Below, piece by piece: positions 28,732 to 36,914 of a stretch of 64,000 nucleotides of DNA. The position numbers and the translations under genes were made by a program. Where the stretch lies: the NCBI GenBank assembly GCA_947496865.1, contig CANMEE010000002.1, positions 1,261,825 through 1,325,824 of the forward strand, written 5' to 3'. The DNA is from an uncultured Sphingomonadaceae bacterium. GTDB taxonomy: Bacteria > Pseudomonadota > Alphaproteobacteria > Sphingomonadales > Sphingomonadaceae. The notes below the pieces were generated by a model. It saw only the letters and a list, made by a program, of their open reading frames with translations, ran no database searches and was not told the origin of the DNA. Numbering within the stretch: the first letter of the stretch is position 1; each line of letters begins with the position of its first letter.

Positions 28732-29754
28732 TTACTTGGGTGCCACTCTATTTAAAAAATCAAAACTCACTTGCAAGGCCGCATTGCGCACCAGGTCAGC
28801 CTCCCGATAAATTTCATGAGCACATTCCTTGCCAAATAGCTTCATCTCGGCGTTAGGCAGCAAATGGACAGCTCTTTCTATTGTGGGATGGTCAACCAGT
28901 TCATCGACCGCAGTCGCAAGGACCAATATTGGCGTCTCTACTGTTTCCAAATGCCTCCGGTTCCTCAGTCCGCGTGTGGAAGAATAAGCTCTCTCCACCC
29001 AGCGCCAACTAGCAGGGCCCAAACGCAAATGCGGGCGCTCTTTAAACCAGAAAAATTCATCAGAGTAGCGATCAGCGTCATGGGTCAGCAGGCCTTGCCG
29101 CAACACTTCGGGTTCGAGCGGTTTCTCGCTAACTTTCCACGCACGGCGCGTTGCTCGGCCAAAGGCACAGATGGCTTTGGATAGGAGATACGCGGTCCAT
29201 TCGGGCATACCACCCCCTGCGGGCGCAAGCATTGGGGCGCATAATATCGCGGCATCGGGATGAATTCGCTGTTCGGCAAGCGTGCGCGCTACGAGATGCC
29301 CGCCCATGCTATGGCCGATGACGACATGCGGTCCAGGATGATTGGCACGCCATTCAAAATAGAATGCACGCAGATCGTCCACCCACGTTGCAAAATCATC
29401 AATATGTCCGACGTGCGGGTGCGGCCCGCAACGGCCCGAACCGCCCTGCCCGCGCCAGTCGGGTGACGTGACATTCCATCCAGCAGCATGGAAGTCGCTA
29501 AATGTCTCAAGATATTTTTCGTAAAAATCAGCACGGCCAGTCATGAACAATATTGAGCCGCGGGCATTTTTACCCGGTTGAAGCCATTCAAATTGGCGCA
29601 ACGCCCAGCCATCGGAAGCGTGCCAGACCAGTTCTTGCGCGTCTTTAGGAATGGACCGTCGATCAAATACAGGCAGGTTCGATCGATTCAAAAACGGGCT
29701 CCGGCCATGATGGTTACTATTTGGTAAGGCATTTTTCTTAAAGCTGTTTCCCAT
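28732..29754 (-). CDS. Alpha/beta hydrolase, lysophospholipase-like
   Basis: GRADFYEKYLETFSDFHAAGWNVTSPDWRGQGGSG, VVIGHSMGGHL; start at 29754 (MGNSF) or 29772. Confidence 0.85.
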   Translation of the reverse strand: MGNSFKKNALPNSNHHGRSPFLNRSNLPVFDRRSIPKDAQELVWHASDGWALRQFEWLQPGKNARGSILFMTGRADFYEKYLETFSDFHAAGWNVTSPDWRGQGGSGRCGPHPHVGHIDDFATWVDDLRAFYFEWRANHPGPHVVIGHSMGGHLVARTLAEQRIHPDAAILCAPMLAPAGGGMPEWTAYLLSKAICAFGRATRRAWKVSEKPLEPEVLRQGLLTHDADRYSDEFFWFKERPHLRLGPASWRWVERAYSSTRGLRNRRHLETVETPILVLATAVDELVDHPTIERAVHLLPNAEMKLFGKECAHEIYREADLVRNAALQVSFDFLNRVAPK

Positions 29755-30226
29755 GAACGGGGAACAACTCATCTACTTGCTCTGGGGCGGCTTGGCAATT
29801 GCGCTGATCGTGGCTGCGATCACCGATATCAAAAGCCGTCACATTTCCAACAAGCTGAATCTGGCCATTGCATTGGGTGCGCCCGTGTTCTGGATTGCCA
29901 GTGACATGGCTTTCTGGCCCGACATGGTGTGGCAAATCGGCATCGCTACGGTCGTATTTACCATATTTGCCGGAATGTTTGCCATTGGCGCGATGGGCGG
30001 CGGGGACGTCAAACTCCTTACAGCCATTGCGTTGTGGCTTCATTGGCTCACCTTAATTCAGATGCTGGTGATCATGTCGATCGCTGGCGGTGTGCTCACG
30101 CTGTTAATGATAACGGCTAAGAAAATCCAAAAAACTGAGGGTCCAGTAAAGGTCCCATATGGAGTTGCCATATCATTTGCAGGGCTTTGGATAATTTACG
30201 AACGATATTTTAACCATTTTACTTGA
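29753..30226 (+). CDS. cpaA: Tad/Cpa prepilin peptidase CpaA (TadV)
   Basis: ITDIKSRHISNKLN and GAMGGGDVKLLTAIALW are type IV prepilin peptidase (A24) aspartate motifs; adjacent to cpaB. Confidence 0.93.
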   Translation: MNGEQLIYLLWGGLAIALIVAAITDIKSRHISNKLNLAIALGAPVFWIASDMAFWPDMVWQIGIATVVFTIFAGMFAIGAMGGGDVKLLTAIALWLHWLTLIQMLVIMSIAGGVLTLLMITAKKIQKTEGPVKVPYGVAISFAGLWIIYERYFNHFT

Positions 30227-30299
30227 AAGAGAAATCTACCGCCAACGGATCATTCAGGGTGATCGATTCCGGTGGGGCATTCAGGAGGCGTAAGACGTC

Positions 30300-31259
30300 A
30301 TGGACAAGAAGAAACTAATTTTGCTCATCGGTGCACTGGTTGTGGCTGCGGTCACGGCATTGCTCGCGAAGAACATGTTCACCGGTGCTTCGGCACCTCA
30401 GGTCGAAGCGAAAAAAGTCGAAGTGCTCGGCGAAGAAGTGCTCGTCGCTTCACGCGCTCTACCTGTTGGCACGATCATTACGCCGGACGCCTTCAGCTTC
30501 CAGCCATGGCCCGAAGATCTCGTTGAAGAAGCCTATTATGAAAAAGAAGGCACGGACATTGAGTCTCTAAACGGTACAGTTGTCCGCAACGCCATCACAG
30601 CCGGTCAGCCACTCACCAAAGGCGCTATTGTTAGCCCAGGTGATCGCGGGTTCCTCGCTGCGGCGCTTGGCCCGGGCATGCGGGCGGTCACCATTCCAGT
30701 CTCAGGCCTTACAGGCGTTGCTGGCTTTGTATTCCCTGGCGATCGTATCGACCTAATGCTTACACAAGCAGTCAAAGGCGACGGTCCTGAACTTAAAGTC
30801 TCGGAAACGGTTATTCGCAACGTCCGGGTATTGGCAACCGATAACCGGGTCACGCAGACTAAGAACGAAGCCGGTCAAGCTGTTGCCCAGAAAACCAAAT
30901 TGGTGACATTGGAAGCAACTCCAAAAATCGCAGAGAAAATTGCCGTCGCACAGACGTTAGGGACGCTTAGCTTGTCGCTACGTTCGCTGGCAGACAGCAC
31001 CGCTGAATTGGAAGAGGCTATTGCGTCTGGCGATATCAAACTGCCCAAGACAGATGATCCAGCCGAAGAAGCAGCGATGCTAAAATCTCTCGCTGCTCGG
31101 CCCAATTCGAAAAAGTCGACCTATTCAACCGGCGGTGAAGTGTCACGCTTTGAAGCACGCACGCCTCCACCTCTTGCCAAGACAGAAATACCCGAAGGAC
31201 CAAAAGTCCGGGTGGCACGCGGCAATGCCGTCAATGAAGTTCAGTTTGGAGACAAATAA
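30300..31259 (+). CDS. cpaB: Flp pilus assembly protein CpaB
   Basis: VLVASRALPVGTIITPDAFSFQPWPED (SAF domain), GMRAVTIPVSGLTGVAGFVFPGDRIDLMLTQ. Confidence 0.95.
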   Translation: MDKKKLILLIGALVVAAVTALLAKNMFTGASAPQVEAKKVEVLGEEVLVASRALPVGTIITPDAFSFQPWPEDLVEEAYYEKEGTDIESLNGTVVRNAITAGQPLTKGAIVSPGDRGFLAAALGPGMRAVTIPVSGLTGVAGFVFPGDRIDLMLTQAVKGDGPELKVSETVIRNVRVLATDNRVTQTKNEAGQAVAQKTKLVTLEATPKIAEKIAVAQTLGTLSLSLRSLADSTAELEEAIASGDIKLPKTDDPAEEAAMLKSLAARPNSKKSTYSTGGEVSRFEARTPPPLAKTEIPEGPKVRVARGNAVNEVQFGDK

Positions 31260-32923
31260 TGTCCACGCAATATGCAAAGCATAGTCGCTTGACGAATAAC
31301 ATATCGGCTAAAAAGGCAATGGGTTCGGCTATTGCTGCTGTATTGGCCTTCACCGCGACTGCCAATGGTTCCGCGCCGCTAAACGCACAGTCGGTCAAAG
31401 TTTCTGCACCGCAATCACGTATTTCGGTTGCCGTGGGCCGAGGCAAATTAATCACCCTGCCTGCGCCCATTGAAGATATTTTCATTGCAGAGAATAACAT
31501 TGCCGATGTGCAAGTCCGTTCGCCGCGGCAAGTCTATATTTTCGGCAAAACTGGCGGTCAGACAAGTTTTTATGCGACCAGCCGCTCCGGTAAGGTCGTA
31601 TATTCTGCAGAAGTATCGGTAGGAGCTGAAATATCCTCCATTGATCAGATGCTCGCTCTCGCCATGCCGGACGCAAAAATTACAGTCAGCTCGAACAATA
31701 ATTTCGTTCTGCTAACCGGAACAATTGCGAATCCGGATGATGCCGAAGAAGCTGAAAATCTTGTAAGAGCCTATGTTGGCGGCGGTGCTGGCGGAGCCGG
31801 CACTACGGTCGTCAGTCGCTTGAAAACGGCTACACCTATGCAAGTAAACTTACGGGTGCGCTTTGCTGAGGTTAGTCGCTCGCTGGCCAAAAATATCAAC
31901 GGTAACTTGCTGACGCGCGATACCACTGGCGGATTCCAATTTGGTGTCGCCCGCGGTCGTAACTTTGGTTCGATCACCGATTTTGACACCAGCGGCTTTC
32001 CAAGCTTGGACGCGTCCAATCTGTTCGGTTTGCCCGCTGGATCGATTTCCTTGCCTTTCAATACGGCCACCGGTCAGTTTGTCACACAGGGCGGAACCGC
32101 ATTCAACTTTAACCAAGCAACCGGCCTAGACTCTGTTCAAGCCGCAGGCCGTCTTTTTGGTCTCGACATTGCAACGGCATTGGATGTGTCGGAGCGTATC
32201 GGTTTGGTGACGACATTAGCATCTCCGAACCTGACAACTATTTCCGGTGAAACTGCTAGTTTTCTGGCAGGTGGACGTTTTCCGATACCCCAATCATCGG
32301 GTTTCGGCGAAGTTAGTGTCACCTATCAAAGCTTTGGTGTTGAACTATCTTATACGCCTACGGTTTTGTCTAACGGACGGATTTCCATCCGGGTCAAACC
32401 AAGCGTGTCCGATATTTCGGCAAATGGCGCCGTTCGCTTGAACGGTTTCGAAATTCCAGCCATTTCAACCAGGGAAGCGGAAACGACCGTTGAACTGGGT
32501 TCTGGCGAAAGTTTCATGATCGCCGGATTGATGCAGAATAACTATAGTTCGACCATCGACAAGACTCCCGGCCTTGCCGACGTGCCGATCCTTGGCAATC
32601 TATTCAAATCAGACGGCTATCGGAAAAACGAAACCGAGCTGATGATCGTGGTGACACCTTATTTGGTGAAACCAGTGAGCGATAGCGAGATTGTGCTGCC
32701 CACAGATGGATTTAAACAGGCCAACGATCTGGAGCGGTTGCTTATGAACCGCCACAGTTCAACCGGTACCGGCGATCGTCCGAAACCGTCGGTCGCACCG
32801 CCGGTAAAATCTGGCCCTGCACTTAGCAGCCAGTCCGCGCCAACGGTTGGTCAAACCGCCAAGAAATTCAAAAAATCGAAAAAATCTGGTGGCGCAGCCC
32901 CCGGTTTCAGCTTCGACAAATAG
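31259..32923 (+). CDS. cpaC: Type II/III secretion system secretin, CpaC (RcpA)
   Basis: BON-like N-terminal region, RVRFAEVSRSLAKNINGNL, GGRFPIPQ, FMIAGLMQNNYSSTIDKTPGLADVPILGNLFKSDGYRKNETELMIVVTPYLVKP. Confidence 0.96.
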   Translation: MSTQYAKHSRLTNNISAKKAMGSAIAAVLAFTATANGSAPLNAQSVKVSAPQSRISVAVGRGKLITLPAPIEDIFIAENNIADVQVRSPRQVYIFGKTGGQTSFYATSRSGKVVYSAEVSVGAEISSIDQMLALAMPDAKITVSSNNNFVLLTGTIANPDDAEEAENLVRAYVGGGAGGAGTTVVSRLKTATPMQVNLRVRFAEVSRSLAKNINGNLLTRDTTGGFQFGVARGRNFGSITDFDTSGFPSLDASNLFGLPAGSISLPFNTATGQFVTQGGTAFNFNQATGLDSVQAAGRLFGLDIATALDVSERIGLVTTLASPNLTTISGETASFLAGGRFPIPQSSGFGEVSVTYQSFGVELSYTPTVLSNGRISIRVKPSVSDISANGAVRLNGFEIPAISTREAETTVELGSGESFMIAGLMQNNYSSTIDKTPGLADVPILGNLFKSDGYRKNETELMIVVTPYLVKPVSDSEIVLPTDGFKQANDLERLLMNRHSSTGTGDRPKPSVAPPVKSGPALSSQSAPTVGQTAKKFKKSKKSGGAAPGFSFDK

Positions 32924-32944
32924 TCCGTTTCAGGAGAAAACATC

Positions 32945-33553
32945 ATGCGTTTTGTTTCTACAGCACTTGTAACCGCTCTCGGACTTTCCGTTGCTGCGTG
33001 TGGCGCCAATACCGCCAATCGTTCGGTTAACAGCGAACGACAGCCGGTGGTCACACGGACCCATTTCGTTCTTGACGTCAACACCGCAGGATCGGGATCA
33101 CTCCCGAGCGGTGAGCTTCGCCGCCTAGCAGGCTGGATGGATGCGTTGGATCTGGGATATGGTGACCGTATTTCCATCGATGACCCAAGCTACAATGCCG
33201 GCGCTTCGGCACGCGGTGCAGTTGAAGCCCTCGCCGCTCAAAAAGGATTGCTGATCAGCGACGTTGCCCCGGTAACAGAGGGCAATGTTCCAAGCGGCGC
33301 GATGCGCGTTGTCGTATCTCGCTCAACCGCTGCTGTTCCGGGCTGCCCCGATTGGAGCAACCGCAGCCACACCGACTTTCAAGCGCGTACGAGTGAAAAT
33401 TACGGATGCGGTGTGAACAGCACAATGGCAGCTATGATTGCCAATCCTGAAGATCTTGTTCGCGGACAAAGCGCTGACGGTGAAGACCAGTCAGAAGCTT
33501 CAAAAGCCATCCGCGCCTATCGTGATAAAGCCAAACAAGCTGGAGGCCTATAA
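32945..33553 (+). CDS. cpaD: CpaD family pilus assembly lipoprotein
   Basis: Lipobox VAAC; PGCPDWSNRS...ENYGCGVNSTMAAMIANPEDLVRG. Confidence 0.93.
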   Translation: MRFVSTALVTALGLSVAACGANTANRSVNSERQPVVTRTHFVLDVNTAGSGSLPSGELRRLAGWMDALDLGYGDRISIDDPSYNAGASARGAVEALAAQKGLLISDVAPVTEGNVPSGAMRVVVSRSTAAVPGCPDWSNRSHTDFQARTSENYGCGVNSTMAAMIANPEDLVRGQSADGEDQSEASKAIRAYRDKAKQAGGL

Positions 33554-34842
33554 TGAACGCTCCTTGGAAACCAGGTTCCGTAAACGGTCGTGATCCGTTC
33601 TCTGCCTTTGTCTGTGATGATGATACGCTGGACCTATTACGCCCTGTCGTAGAAGAAATGGGCTGGCCCGTAGACAAGTGCCACAAAGGTGGACTGCGCA
33701 ACGCCGTACAATCTTTGTCGGTTGCCGCAAGCCCGAACATATTGATGGTCGACCTTTCTGAATCAGGCGATCCGCTGGCTGACATCAATTCACTGGCAGA
33801 AGTATGTGAGCCCGGTACGGTTGTTATCGCCATGGGTCAGGTAAATGACGTACGTCTTTATCGCGACCTGATAGTCAGCGGTTTGCAAGACTATCTGCTC
33901 AAACCATTTAGCCCGGAACAATTGCGGGACGTGCTCAGCCAGGCGCAAGCGACGCTCAACGCACCGAAAGCAGAAGATCAGGCCAGCGAGAAGCCCCATG
34001 TTTCTACCGCAGTCATTGGAACCCGTGGCGGTGTTGGCGCATCGACCATTGCGACTTCTCTCGCATGGTTGCTGAGTAACGAGAAAGAGCGTTTGACCGC
34101 TCTTCTGGATCTTGATGTCCATTTCGGCACTGGCGCTTTGTCGCTCGATCTCGAACCTGGTCGCGGTCTTACTGATGCAATCGACAATCCCAGCCGGATT
34201 GACGGCCTGTTCATTGAACGTGCGATGATCAAGGCGAACGATAAGCTTTCTTTACTCTCAGCAGAGGCGCCAATTAACTCGCCAATGATGACAGATGGAA
34301 CAGCATTTTTCCAATTGCAGGAAGAATTCCGCGCCGCGTTTGAATGTACAGTCATCGACTTGCCACGGGAAATGTTGATCAGCTATCCGCATCTTCTTGG
34401 TGATGTGAACGCAACTGTTATTGTCACCGAATTGACATTGGCTTCTGCGCGCGATGCTATTCGCTTGCTCTCATGGCTCAAGTCACATGCCGCGCAAAGC
34501 AAGGTCATTGTGGTTGCCAACAAAGTGCAATCTGGCGGCCTTGAAATCTCTCGTCAGGATTTTGAAAACTCGATTGAACGAAAAATCGATATCATGATTC
34601 CGTCAGATCCCAAAACAGCGGCCCACTCGGCCAAATTGGGTCAGGCATTTGTTGAAGCCGGAAAATCAAGCAAAGCGACCAGCAAAATCATCGCGCTGGC
34701 CGATCATATACTCGGCACAGTGGAAGCCGAAGGCGACGACGGTGAAGCTGCTGGCAAAACATCTCTGATGGACAAATTTGGCGGAATGAAATCGCTGCTT
34801 TCATCAAAGAAAAAGAAAGAAGACGAGACATCTAAATCGTGA
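33553..34842 (+). CDS. cpaE: CpaE-like pilus assembly ATPase (MinD/ParA-type with receiver-like N-terminus)
   Basis: GTRGGVGASTIATSLAWLLSNE (deviant Walker A), LLDLDVHFGTGALSLDLEPGRGL, IDLPRE. Confidence 0.95.
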   Translation: MNAPWKPGSVNGRDPFSAFVCDDDTLDLLRPVVEEMGWPVDKCHKGGLRNAVQSLSVAASPNILMVDLSESGDPLADINSLAEVCEPGTVVIAMGQVNDVRLYRDLIVSGLQDYLLKPFSPEQLRDVLSQAQATLNAPKAEDQASEKPHVSTAVIGTRGGVGASTIATSLAWLLSNEKERLTALLDLDVHFGTGALSLDLEPGRGLTDAIDNPSRIDGLFIERAMIKANDKLSLLSAEAPINSPMMTDGTAFFQLQEEFRAAFECTVIDLPREMLISYPHLLGDVNATVIVTELTLASARDAIRLLSWLKSHAAQSKVIVVANKVQSGGLEISRQDFENSIERKIDIMIPSDPKTAAHSAKLGQAFVEAGKSSKATSKIIALADHILGTVEAEGDDGEAAGKTSLMDKFGGMKSLLSSKKKKEDETSKS

Positions 34843-34883
34843 TGGAACACTCGTTTCTTTCTAAAATGCAAGGACGCACATAA
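34842..34883 (+). CDS. 13-codon ORF between cpaE and tadB (possible scar or leader peptide)
   Basis: ATGGAACACTCGTTTCTTTCTAAAATGCAAGGACGCACATAA = MEHSFLSKMQGRT*; start overlaps the cpaE stop (TGATG), stop overlaps the tadB start (TAATG). Confidence 0.35.
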   Translation: MEHSFLSKMQGRT

Positions 34884-35854
34884 TGGATATGATGCAGACA
34901 GCGGTGCTTGGCGGGGGCATATTAATTGTCCTGATGCTTGTCGTTTTTGCTTTTGCGGGCCCCTCTGAGGCGGCAGCGAAAGCAAAACGGTTGGATAAAG
35001 TGCGCTTCCGTCATTCGGATAGCACCAATGCCAAGATGGAAGCACAGATGAAAAAGGCGGTTAGTGCCCGTCGGAAAAACCATCGCCCCACCAGCGAAAA
35101 CCAATCAAAAATGGATACGCTCGCGATCCGATTGGACCGGACTGGACGGAATTGGACGATATCACAGTTTTTCTATGTTTGCGGTGGTCTGGCCGCCCTG
35201 GTCGCTGCCGGCCTGTTTTTTCAGGGCGCACCGCTATTGCTCTGCCTGTTTGGCGGTTTGGCGATAGGTTTTGGATTGCCGCATATGGTCGTAAGCATAC
35301 TGATAGGGATGCGCGTCGCCAAATTTACGGCTTCTTTCCCAGATGCCATCGAACTTCTGGTTCGCGGCCTCAGATCCGGCCTTCCGGTGACAGAAACAAT
35401 TGGTGTTGTCGCTAAAGAAATCGATGGTCCTGTTGGCGAAGAATTTGGCAAGGTTGTCGACCGGATCAAAATTGGCCGGACGATGGAAGATGCCCTGGGC
35501 GAAAGCGCAAAGCGCCTCGACACCGCGGAGTTTAAGTTTTTCTGCATCACGTTGGCTATCCAGCGCGAAACCGGTGGTAACCTGGCAGAGACGCTTGCCA
35601 ATTTGGCCGATGTACTGCGGAAGCGCGGGCAGATGAAGCTAAAAATTAAAGCTATGTCCTCTGAATCGAAGGCCTCTGCTTATATTGTTGGTTCGTTGCC
35701 GTTTATCGTTTTCGCCTTGGTGTGGTCGGTTAATCCCACTTATCTTGCGGGTTTTTTCGTTGAAGAACGATTGATTATAGCTGGGCTTGGCGGATTGACC
35801 TGGATGAGCATTGGTGTGTTCATCATGGCCAAAATGGTCAACTTTGAAATTTAA
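34883..35854 (+). CDS. tadB: Type II secretion system F family protein TadB
   Basis: SFPDAIELLVRGLRSGLPVTETIGVVAKEIDGPVGEEFGKVVDRIKIGRTMEDALGE...QRETGGNLAETLANLADVLRKRGQMKLKIKAMSSESKASA. Confidence 0.95.
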   Translation: MDMMQTAVLGGGILIVLMLVVFAFAGPSEAAAKAKRLDKVRFRHSDSTNAKMEAQMKKAVSARRKNHRPTSENQSKMDTLAIRLDRTGRNWTISQFFYVCGGLAALVAAGLFFQGAPLLLCLFGGLAIGFGLPHMVVSILIGMRVAKFTASFPDAIELLVRGLRSGLPVTETIGVVAKEIDGPVGEEFGKVVDRIKIGRTMEDALGESAKRLDTAEFKFFCITLAIQRETGGNLAETLANLADVLRKRGQMKLKIKAMSSESKASAYIVGSLPFIVFALVWSVNPTYLAGFFVEERLIIAGLGGLTWMSIGVFIMAKMVNFEI

Positions 35855-35871
35855 GAAGAAGGTGTAAGGCA

Positions 35872-36858
35872 ATGCCCAACAGTGGTCCGACTTTACTGGG
35901 AATAGACATCCTCTGGGTAGCAACTATTATGGCTGCCGTAGCGACGCTTGCGGTCATCTTCGCCATCTATGCAGCCGTAACTGTCCGCGATCCTATGGCA
36001 AAGCGCGTCAAATCGCTCAATGAGAGGCGCGAGCAGCTTAAAGCCGGTATTACCGCCTCTACAACCAAGAAGCGCGCGAAGTTGGTCCAGCAGAACGATA
36101 CGACCGACCGTATGCGCGGCCTGTTGTCGTCTCTAAAAGTTTTGCAGGATGACCAGCTAAAAGAATCGCAACAAAAATTGGCCCAAGCCGGGATCCGGTC
36201 GAAAGATTTGGCCTATGCGGTTATTTTTAGCCGCATGGTATTGCCGATTGTTTTCGGCGGTGCTGCTGCCCTTGCCTTATACGGCTTTGATTACATGCCC
36301 GACTGGACGCCGATCAAGAAATTCGCCGCCTTTGCTGGTTCTGCGATTGCCGGCTATAAAGGCGCAGATATCTATTTGAACAACCTGATCTCAAAGCGTA
36401 CGGACTTGGTCCGCAAAGGTCTTCCCGACGCCATTGACCTCTTGGTCATCTGCGCCGAAGCTGGCTTGACCGTTGATAGTGCTTTTGCGCGTGTCGCCAA
36501 GGAACTGGGGGATGCCTATCCCGAGTTAGCAGATGAATTCTCTCTCACATCAATTGAGTTGGGTTTCCTTACCGAACGCCGCCAGGCATTTGAGAATCTC
36601 GCTTATCGCGTGGCATTGGAGCACGTCAAAGGTGTGGTTACAACCATGATTCAGACCGAAAAATATGGTACGCCGCTGGCTTCCGCTCTGCGCGTCCTAT
36701 CAGCAGAATTTCGAAATGATCGGATGATGCGTGCCGAAGAAAAAGCCGCGCGTCTGCCAGCGATTATGACGATCCCGCTGATTCTATTCATTCTGCCAAC
36801 ACTGTTTATCGTGATCTTGGGCCCTGCAGCCTGCTCGATCTCGGATACGATGTTATAG
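35872..36858 (+). CDS. tadC: Type II secretion system F family protein TadC
   Basis: GLPDAIDLLVICAEAGLTVDSAFARVAKEL...EKYGTPLASALRVLSAEFRNDRMMRAEEKAARLPAIMTIPLILFILPTLFIVILGPA. Confidence 0.95.
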   Translation: MPNSGPTLLGIDILWVATIMAAVATLAVIFAIYAAVTVRDPMAKRVKSLNERREQLKAGITASTTKKRAKLVQQNDTTDRMRGLLSSLKVLQDDQLKESQQKLAQAGIRSKDLAYAVIFSRMVLPIVFGGAAALALYGFDYMPDWTPIKKFAAFAGSAIAGYKGADIYLNNLISKRTDLVRKGLPDAIDLLVICAEAGLTVDSAFARVAKELGDAYPELADEFSLTSIELGFLTERRQAFENLAYRVALEHVKGVVTTMIQTEKYGTPLASALRVLSAEFRNDRMMRAEEKAARLPAIMTIPLILFILPTLFIVILGPAACSISDTML

Positions 36859-36879
36859 CGAAGAGCATCAAACCAAAAC

Positions 36880-36914
36880 AAAAAAGAGCGGCCTCAAAAA
36901 GCCGCTCTTTTTTT
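36880..36914 (+). terminator. Intrinsic terminator after tadC
   Basis: AAAAAAGAGCGGC-CTCAAAAA-GCCGCTCTTTTTTT: strong stem with T tract. Confidence 0.9.

Follow-up and report, generated by a model that had tools for sequence, protein, structure and literature searches.

A Tad pilus operon without its motor gene, and a stand-alone CpaF paralogue as the probable Tad motor of most Sphingomonadaceae

We analysed a window of 64,000 nucleotides (C2:1261825-1325824 of genome G000, which is 3.38 Mb in size and 100% complete), in which a single plus-strand run at positions 29753-36858 encodes cpaA, cpaB, cpaC, cpaD, cpaE, tadB and tadC (Table 1). The ORF list and the Pfam and NCBIfam models agree on these genes, and their coordinates are as a first-pass annotation of the window had described them. 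Together they supply the core set of a Tad (type IVc) pilus: a secretin, CpaB, CpaD, CpaE/TadZ, the platform proteins TadB and TadC, and a prepilin peptidase. Neither ORFs nor family models revealed a cpaF, flp or TadE/G gene in the tad block of the window, in line with the absences already reported there, and the place between cpaE and tadB is without the CpaF/TadA motor gene, a paralogue of which lies intact 1.19 Mb away. The terminator previously noted after tadC was also recovered, as a hairpin with its U tail in the minus direction.

Table 1. Genes and other features of the tad block, in window positions.
Feature	Position	Strand	Basis
cpaA, prepilin peptidase	29753..30226	+	Pfam Peptidase_A24, 65.7 bits
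cpaB/rcpC	30300..31259	+	Pfam RcpC, 111.9 bits; TIGR03177, 206 bits (cut-off 71)
cpaC/rcpA, secretin	31259..32923	+	Pfam Secretin, 140.8 bits; T2SS-T3SS_pil_N
cpaD, pilus lipoprotein	32945..33553	+	Pfam Pilus_CpaD, 150.6 bits
cpaE/tadZ, ParA/MinD-like	33553..34842	+	TIGR03815, 57.7 bits, below its cut-off; MinD-type matches; operon position
13-codon frame, read as spacer, no gene	34842..34883	+	Sequence; relatives' junctions
AAGGA, Shine-Dalgarno-like, conserved spacer core	34870..34874	+	8 nt before tadB start
tadB (CpaG), platform protein	34883..35854	+	Pfam T2SSF, 88.6 bits
tadC (CpaH), platform protein	35872..36858	+	Pfam T2SSF, 65.8 bits
Terminator-like hairpin between tadC and a convergent MarR-type gene	36880..36913		15-pair stem, loop of 4, near-symmetric

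The cpaE stop (34840-34842) and the tadB start are separated by 40 nt that hold no gene, TGATGGAACACTCGTTTCTTTCTAAAATGCAAGGACGCACATAATG. As reported earlier, a 13-codon frame from ATG to TAA, MEHSFLSKMQGRT, bridges them exactly, its first base being the last of the cpaE stop and its last base the first of the tadB start. This end-to-end frame is kept only among the closest relatives, namely in the window and 8 of the 9 nearest loci, one of which (L056) keeps it across a 6-nt in-frame insertion as 15 codons, while another close relative (L054) has lost its stop. No such frame was found at the junction in other members of the genus, despite a similar spacer length, or in most other members of the family, whose spacers measure 26-158 nt. 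The double overlap and the persistence of the frame in the nearest loci, even across the insertion in L056, would suit the proposal that it encodes a genuine coupling peptide or leader, kept by selection, which stands in for cpaF and tunes the translation of tadB. Against this stand its absence from the rest of the genus, the lost stop in L054 and the lack of codon-position bias, with 5, 5 and 4 variable sites at codon positions 1, 2 and 3 in an alignment of nine equally long sequences. Codons 2-4 vary almost freely, and the constant part holds a Shine-Dalgarno-like motif that is AAGGA or GAGGA in close relatives and a similar AAAGGAAT in more distant members of the genus. Because of the even spread of substitutions, the free codons and the stop loss, selection for a peptide is unsupported and this proposal is improbable; judged by its nucleotides, the conservation pattern is that of a ribosome-binding spacer, and the frame looks like ordinary spacer DNA without a coding signature. 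At the same junction in L118 (Qipengyuania sp. YIM B01966), an unrelated 16-codon frame, MAGGTTPVMDEGGPMR, shares bases with the cpaE stop and extends as far as the tadB start, so that mini-frames of this kind can arise by chance at this position.

The first-pass annotation had alternatively suggested that cpaF was lost and that its two ends were fused as the mini-ORF. We compared the encoded peptide with the first and the last 60 residues of 55 CpaFs, using 200 shuffles, which revealed no likeness to CpaF N-termini (185 of 200 shuffles scored as well) and a best C-terminal match to a distant second-system CpaF, which 12 of 200 shuffles equalled; a cpaF remnant was rejected on these scores. 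The first half of the suggestion holds, in that an ancestor within the family lost the cpaF that once occupied this slot, but the mini-ORF is not made of its fused ends, because the loss predates most of the family, most spacers lack such a frame and the peptide does not resemble a CpaF N-terminus.

The nearest named records come from the Sphingorhabdus/Parasphingorhabdus group of the Sphingomonadaceae. Directly adjacent cpaE and tadB, without cpaF and with gaps of 26-158 nt, occur in all 79 named Sphingomonadaceae loci that hold both genes (from Parasphingorhabdus, Erythrobacter, Qipengyuania, Novosphingobium, Blastomonas, Croceicoccus, Tsuneonella and others), although these were picked by similarity to the window TadB and thus represent the cpaF-less lineage, not the family at large. 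An assembly collapse that removed cpaF at 34842-34883, which the first-pass annotation wished to see checked, has nothing in its favour beyond the absence of the gene itself and, with the same junction in 79 other assembled records, is extremely improbable. We fetched 27 loci from the class outside this family: 26 have the order cpaE-cpaF-tadB, and the remaining one has frameshifts. The absence of cpaF from its slot is systematic, far beyond chance.

We also surveyed 40 further Sphingomonadaceae genera, with one genome per genus. A cpaF-less tadB together with a stand-alone (orphan) cpaF was found in 27 genera, that is, in every genus with a cpaF-less locus; eight had a linked cpaF only, most of them with a more distant tadB; one (G037) had both an orphan and a linked cpaF; one (G058) had an orphan and no detected tadB; and three had neither a cpaF-less tadB locus or orphan nor a linked cpaF. 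Orphans thus occurred in 2 of the 13 genera without a cpaF-less locus (G037 and G058), and the association between orphan and cpaF-less locus is strong by Fisher's test (p = 3e-8), which ignores relatedness, so that the cpaF-less state may represent one loss. The two assemblies with an orphan but no tadB (G058 and G015) are fragmented or incomplete, and an orphan may have been missed in G045 (91% complete) and G055 (67% complete). In seven genomes (G012, G025, G029, G048, G050, G065 and G069), more distant TadB and CpaF pairs lie together, indicating further divergent tad clusters with a linked cpaF of their own.

Across the whole of genome G000, T2SSE models identified two ATPases. The only one of CpaF type is intact at C2:106435-108024, on the same contig as tadB, with an EamA-type transporter gene and atpC, atpD and atpG on one side and genes for a hydroxyisobutyrate dehydrogenase and an enoyl-CoA hydratase on the other. 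It has the 3HB-NTD-CAD core of CpaF/TadA with Walker A and B motifs, Asp box and arginine fingers, and aligns over the full core with the solved Caulobacter CpaF structures (486 bits). Stand-alone cpaF genes just downstream of atpG-atpD-atpC, often with an EamA-type gene between, were seen in many Sphingomonadaceae genera (L128:9433-14726, corresponding to G000:C2 ~106-112 kb, and L141, L142, L143, L147, L189, L226 and L227). The second T2SSE match (C1:73172-74305) adjoins GspF- and secretin-like genes, consistent with a type II secretion system, and this GspE-type ATPase was rejected as a Tad motor.

Genome G000 also contains two tandem flp genes (Flp_Fap) for Flp pilins at C1 ~32.5-33.0 kb and a TadG/TadE/TadE-like three-gene cluster of pseudopilins at C2 709.5-712.8 kb; like cpaF, both are unlinked to the operon. 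The members of the flp pair (L129:7523-7972) are clearly different in sequence, each a short stand-alone frame, and the same pair occurs across the genus. With cpaF, flp and TadE/G located elsewhere, all main classes of the Tad system are present, though distributed among four sites, as the other alternative in the first-pass annotation, that these genes lie elsewhere in the genome, had anticipated. The missing motor gene and the absence of flp and TadE from the window could also be read as early signs of a decaying locus whose pilus is no longer made; however, no frame of the operon is broken, its gene order persists throughout the family, the orphan CpaF, flp and TadE/G genes are undamaged at their own sites and flp was found in 59 of 61 relatives checked, which leaves decay very unlikely.

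A simpler account of the stand-alone gene is relocation, in which the operon's own cpaF moved and the gene found elsewhere is its direct descendant. The single intact CpaF outside the operon fits this account, as do the distances in some relatives: within the genus of the window, 15 genomes have only 71-89 kb between cpaF and tadB, compared with 1.2-1.3 Mb in G000 and three other members. In G063 (L143, contig C29), the orphan beside the atp operon is only ~6.5 kb from the tad operon, which is likewise what a moved gene might look like. The phylogeny points the other way. In a 55-row CpaF tree, the stand-alone CpaFs from Sphingomonadaceae form one clade (100/100) with those from other families of the order, families that also keep a linked cpaF, and this orphan clade lies apart from every linked CpaF, from the second-system CpaFs and from the Caulobacter CpaF. 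It remains a single clade (100/100) when other families of the class are added, where it adjoins the clade of all linked Sphingomonadales CpaFs (98/91) through a weak join (83/51). Placements were taken from mixture-model trees, the LG+G4 tree having given long-branch warnings for the second-system rows. The orphan is thus not orthologous to the operon-linked CpaF on this separate clade and on an AU test, defined after the first tree had been seen, which rejected forcing the orphans and linked CpaFs of the family into one clade (p = 9e-5). Both types occur in G037 and, in other families of the order, in G074, G086, G089, G090, G093, G094 and G096. Where surroundings were readable, the other-family orphans stand alone among unrelated genes; that they belong to hidden second tad clusters was rejected, there being no tad homologues among the neighbouring genes. 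With an Arg-to-Pro marker that is common to 27 of 28 orphans and occurs in no linked CpaF examined (see below), relocation is unlikely, and the trees indicate that what remains is an old and distinct cpaF paralogue instead of the missing gene at a new site, which the first-pass annotation did not foresee.

The TadB tree places the cpaF-less loci with the early-branching linked loci of Sphingomonadaceae in G045, G055 and G037 (99/96), a group that second-system rows also join on a very long branch, probably as an artefact. Since early-branching members retain a linked cpaF, one of them (G037) has both types and the orphan clade is separate, the family appears to have lost the canonical motor and kept the paralogue. 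The simplest history we infer is that both motors were present in the ancestor of the order, and that the linked one was kept in a few early-branching genera and lost in the rest.

Residues known from the Caulobacter enzyme support the view that the orphans could act as motors. The nucleotide-handling residues of Caulobacter CpaF (D215, R217, R223, G284, K287, T288, E312, R347 and E357; PMC12019362) have invariant equivalents in 28 of 28 orphans, and the pore-loop residue E331, named for platform contact (PMC12019362), is kept in 27 and is Asp in one. Caulobacter R322, in contrast, is replaced by Pro in 27 of 28 orphans and by Thr in one, but is Arg in all 20 linked Sphingomonadales CpaFs, all 6 rows kept apart because they represent second systems or long branches, and all 23 class-level CpaFs with a readable motif. 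The extended pore loop (T325-T337), which is predicted to touch CpaG/CpaH (PMC12019362), begins three residues after this position, and a Pro next to the loop where Arg is otherwise invariant could signify altered function. All Sphingomonadaceae orphans examined except that of G037 have Trp for the usual Val at the V320 position (353 in the 530-residue frame), and those of the main lineage have Arg at the Q314 position. G037, the sole exception to the Trp, is the only one of these genomes to retain a linked cpaF besides its orphan.

Taken together, we consider it probable (roughly 80%) that the linked cpaF was lost in the main Sphingomonadaceae lineage, that the orphan paralogue serves in trans as its sole Tad motor and that the spacer has its 13-codon open frame by chance. 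The operon in the window would then be the core assembly operon of a Tad pilus spread over at least four chromosomal sites. On the trees, the Sphingomonadales ancestor would have had the order cpaE-cpaF-tadB and a second, stand-alone cpaF paralogue; deletion of the linked cpaF in the main Sphingomonadaceae lineage would have left a short spacer serving as the tadB ribosome-binding region, while the stand-alone paralogue, which in many genera adjoins the ATP-synthase operon, would have become the only Tad motor, acting on TadB and TadC from a distance. Translation of the 13-codon frame would at most help to pass ribosomes from cpaE to tadB. Judging from the genomes, most of the Sphingomonadaceae apparently have the orphan CpaF as sole motor, and some relatives carry it as a second motor gene. 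The first-pass annotation would have regarded the locus as unremarkable if an intact cpaF elsewhere were normal in close relatives; the bare arrangement is indeed normal for the family, but the finding is worth more than dismissal as a family norm because the remaining motor is a separate, older paralogue.

A more speculative extension, which we regard as possible but doubtful, is that the orphan clade is a second kind of Tad motor, with linked and orphan CpaFs, in genomes that have both genes, doing different jobs on one pilus, for example extension versus retraction or use under specific conditions, and with the orphan as sole motor in most Sphingomonadaceae, where its takeover would have come with a changed site next to the pore loop. 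The reference for one motor that both extends and retracts the Tad pilus is Caulobacter CpaF, and the picture of Tad as a single-motor system would be broken if two motors shared the work. The apparent motor swap, along with relatives that have both genes, offers a natural test of motor contacts and of work-sharing between two Tad motors. There is also a practical consequence, in that locus-based annotation will call the Tad systems of Sphingomonadaceae motor-less or incomplete. In the open-access literature, to which our search was confined, we found no account of an orphan CpaF or a divided Tad locus in Sphingomonadaceae, and no paper showing that cells of this family make Tad pili or that the orphan drives them.

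Among known systems, the closest is the Tad/Cpa (type IVc) pilus of Caulobacter crescentus, which has the same cpaA-B-C-D-E and tadB/tadC (cpaG/cpaH) families. Genome G000 likewise encodes a CpaF-type motor, Flp pilins and TadE/G-like pseudopilins but, unlike Caulobacter crescentus, has no cpaF between cpaE and tadB, carries flp, TadE/G and cpaF at three other sites and has a separate CpaF paralogue as its putative motor. Compared with the CpaF/TadA hexamer (PDB 9e24 and 8rkd; PMC12019362, PMC11300603), the orphans keep the equivalents of Walker A K287, E312, E357, the arginine fingers R217/R223/R347 and, in all but one, pore-loop E331, whereas Arg322, just ahead of the extended pore loop, is replaced by Pro or, in one of them, by Thr. 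The linked tad loci of other Sphingomonadales families and of G037, G045 and G055 have homologous CpaE and TadB in the same order apart from cpaF; unlike the window, they keep the canonical cpaF, and some of these genomes also have the orphan.
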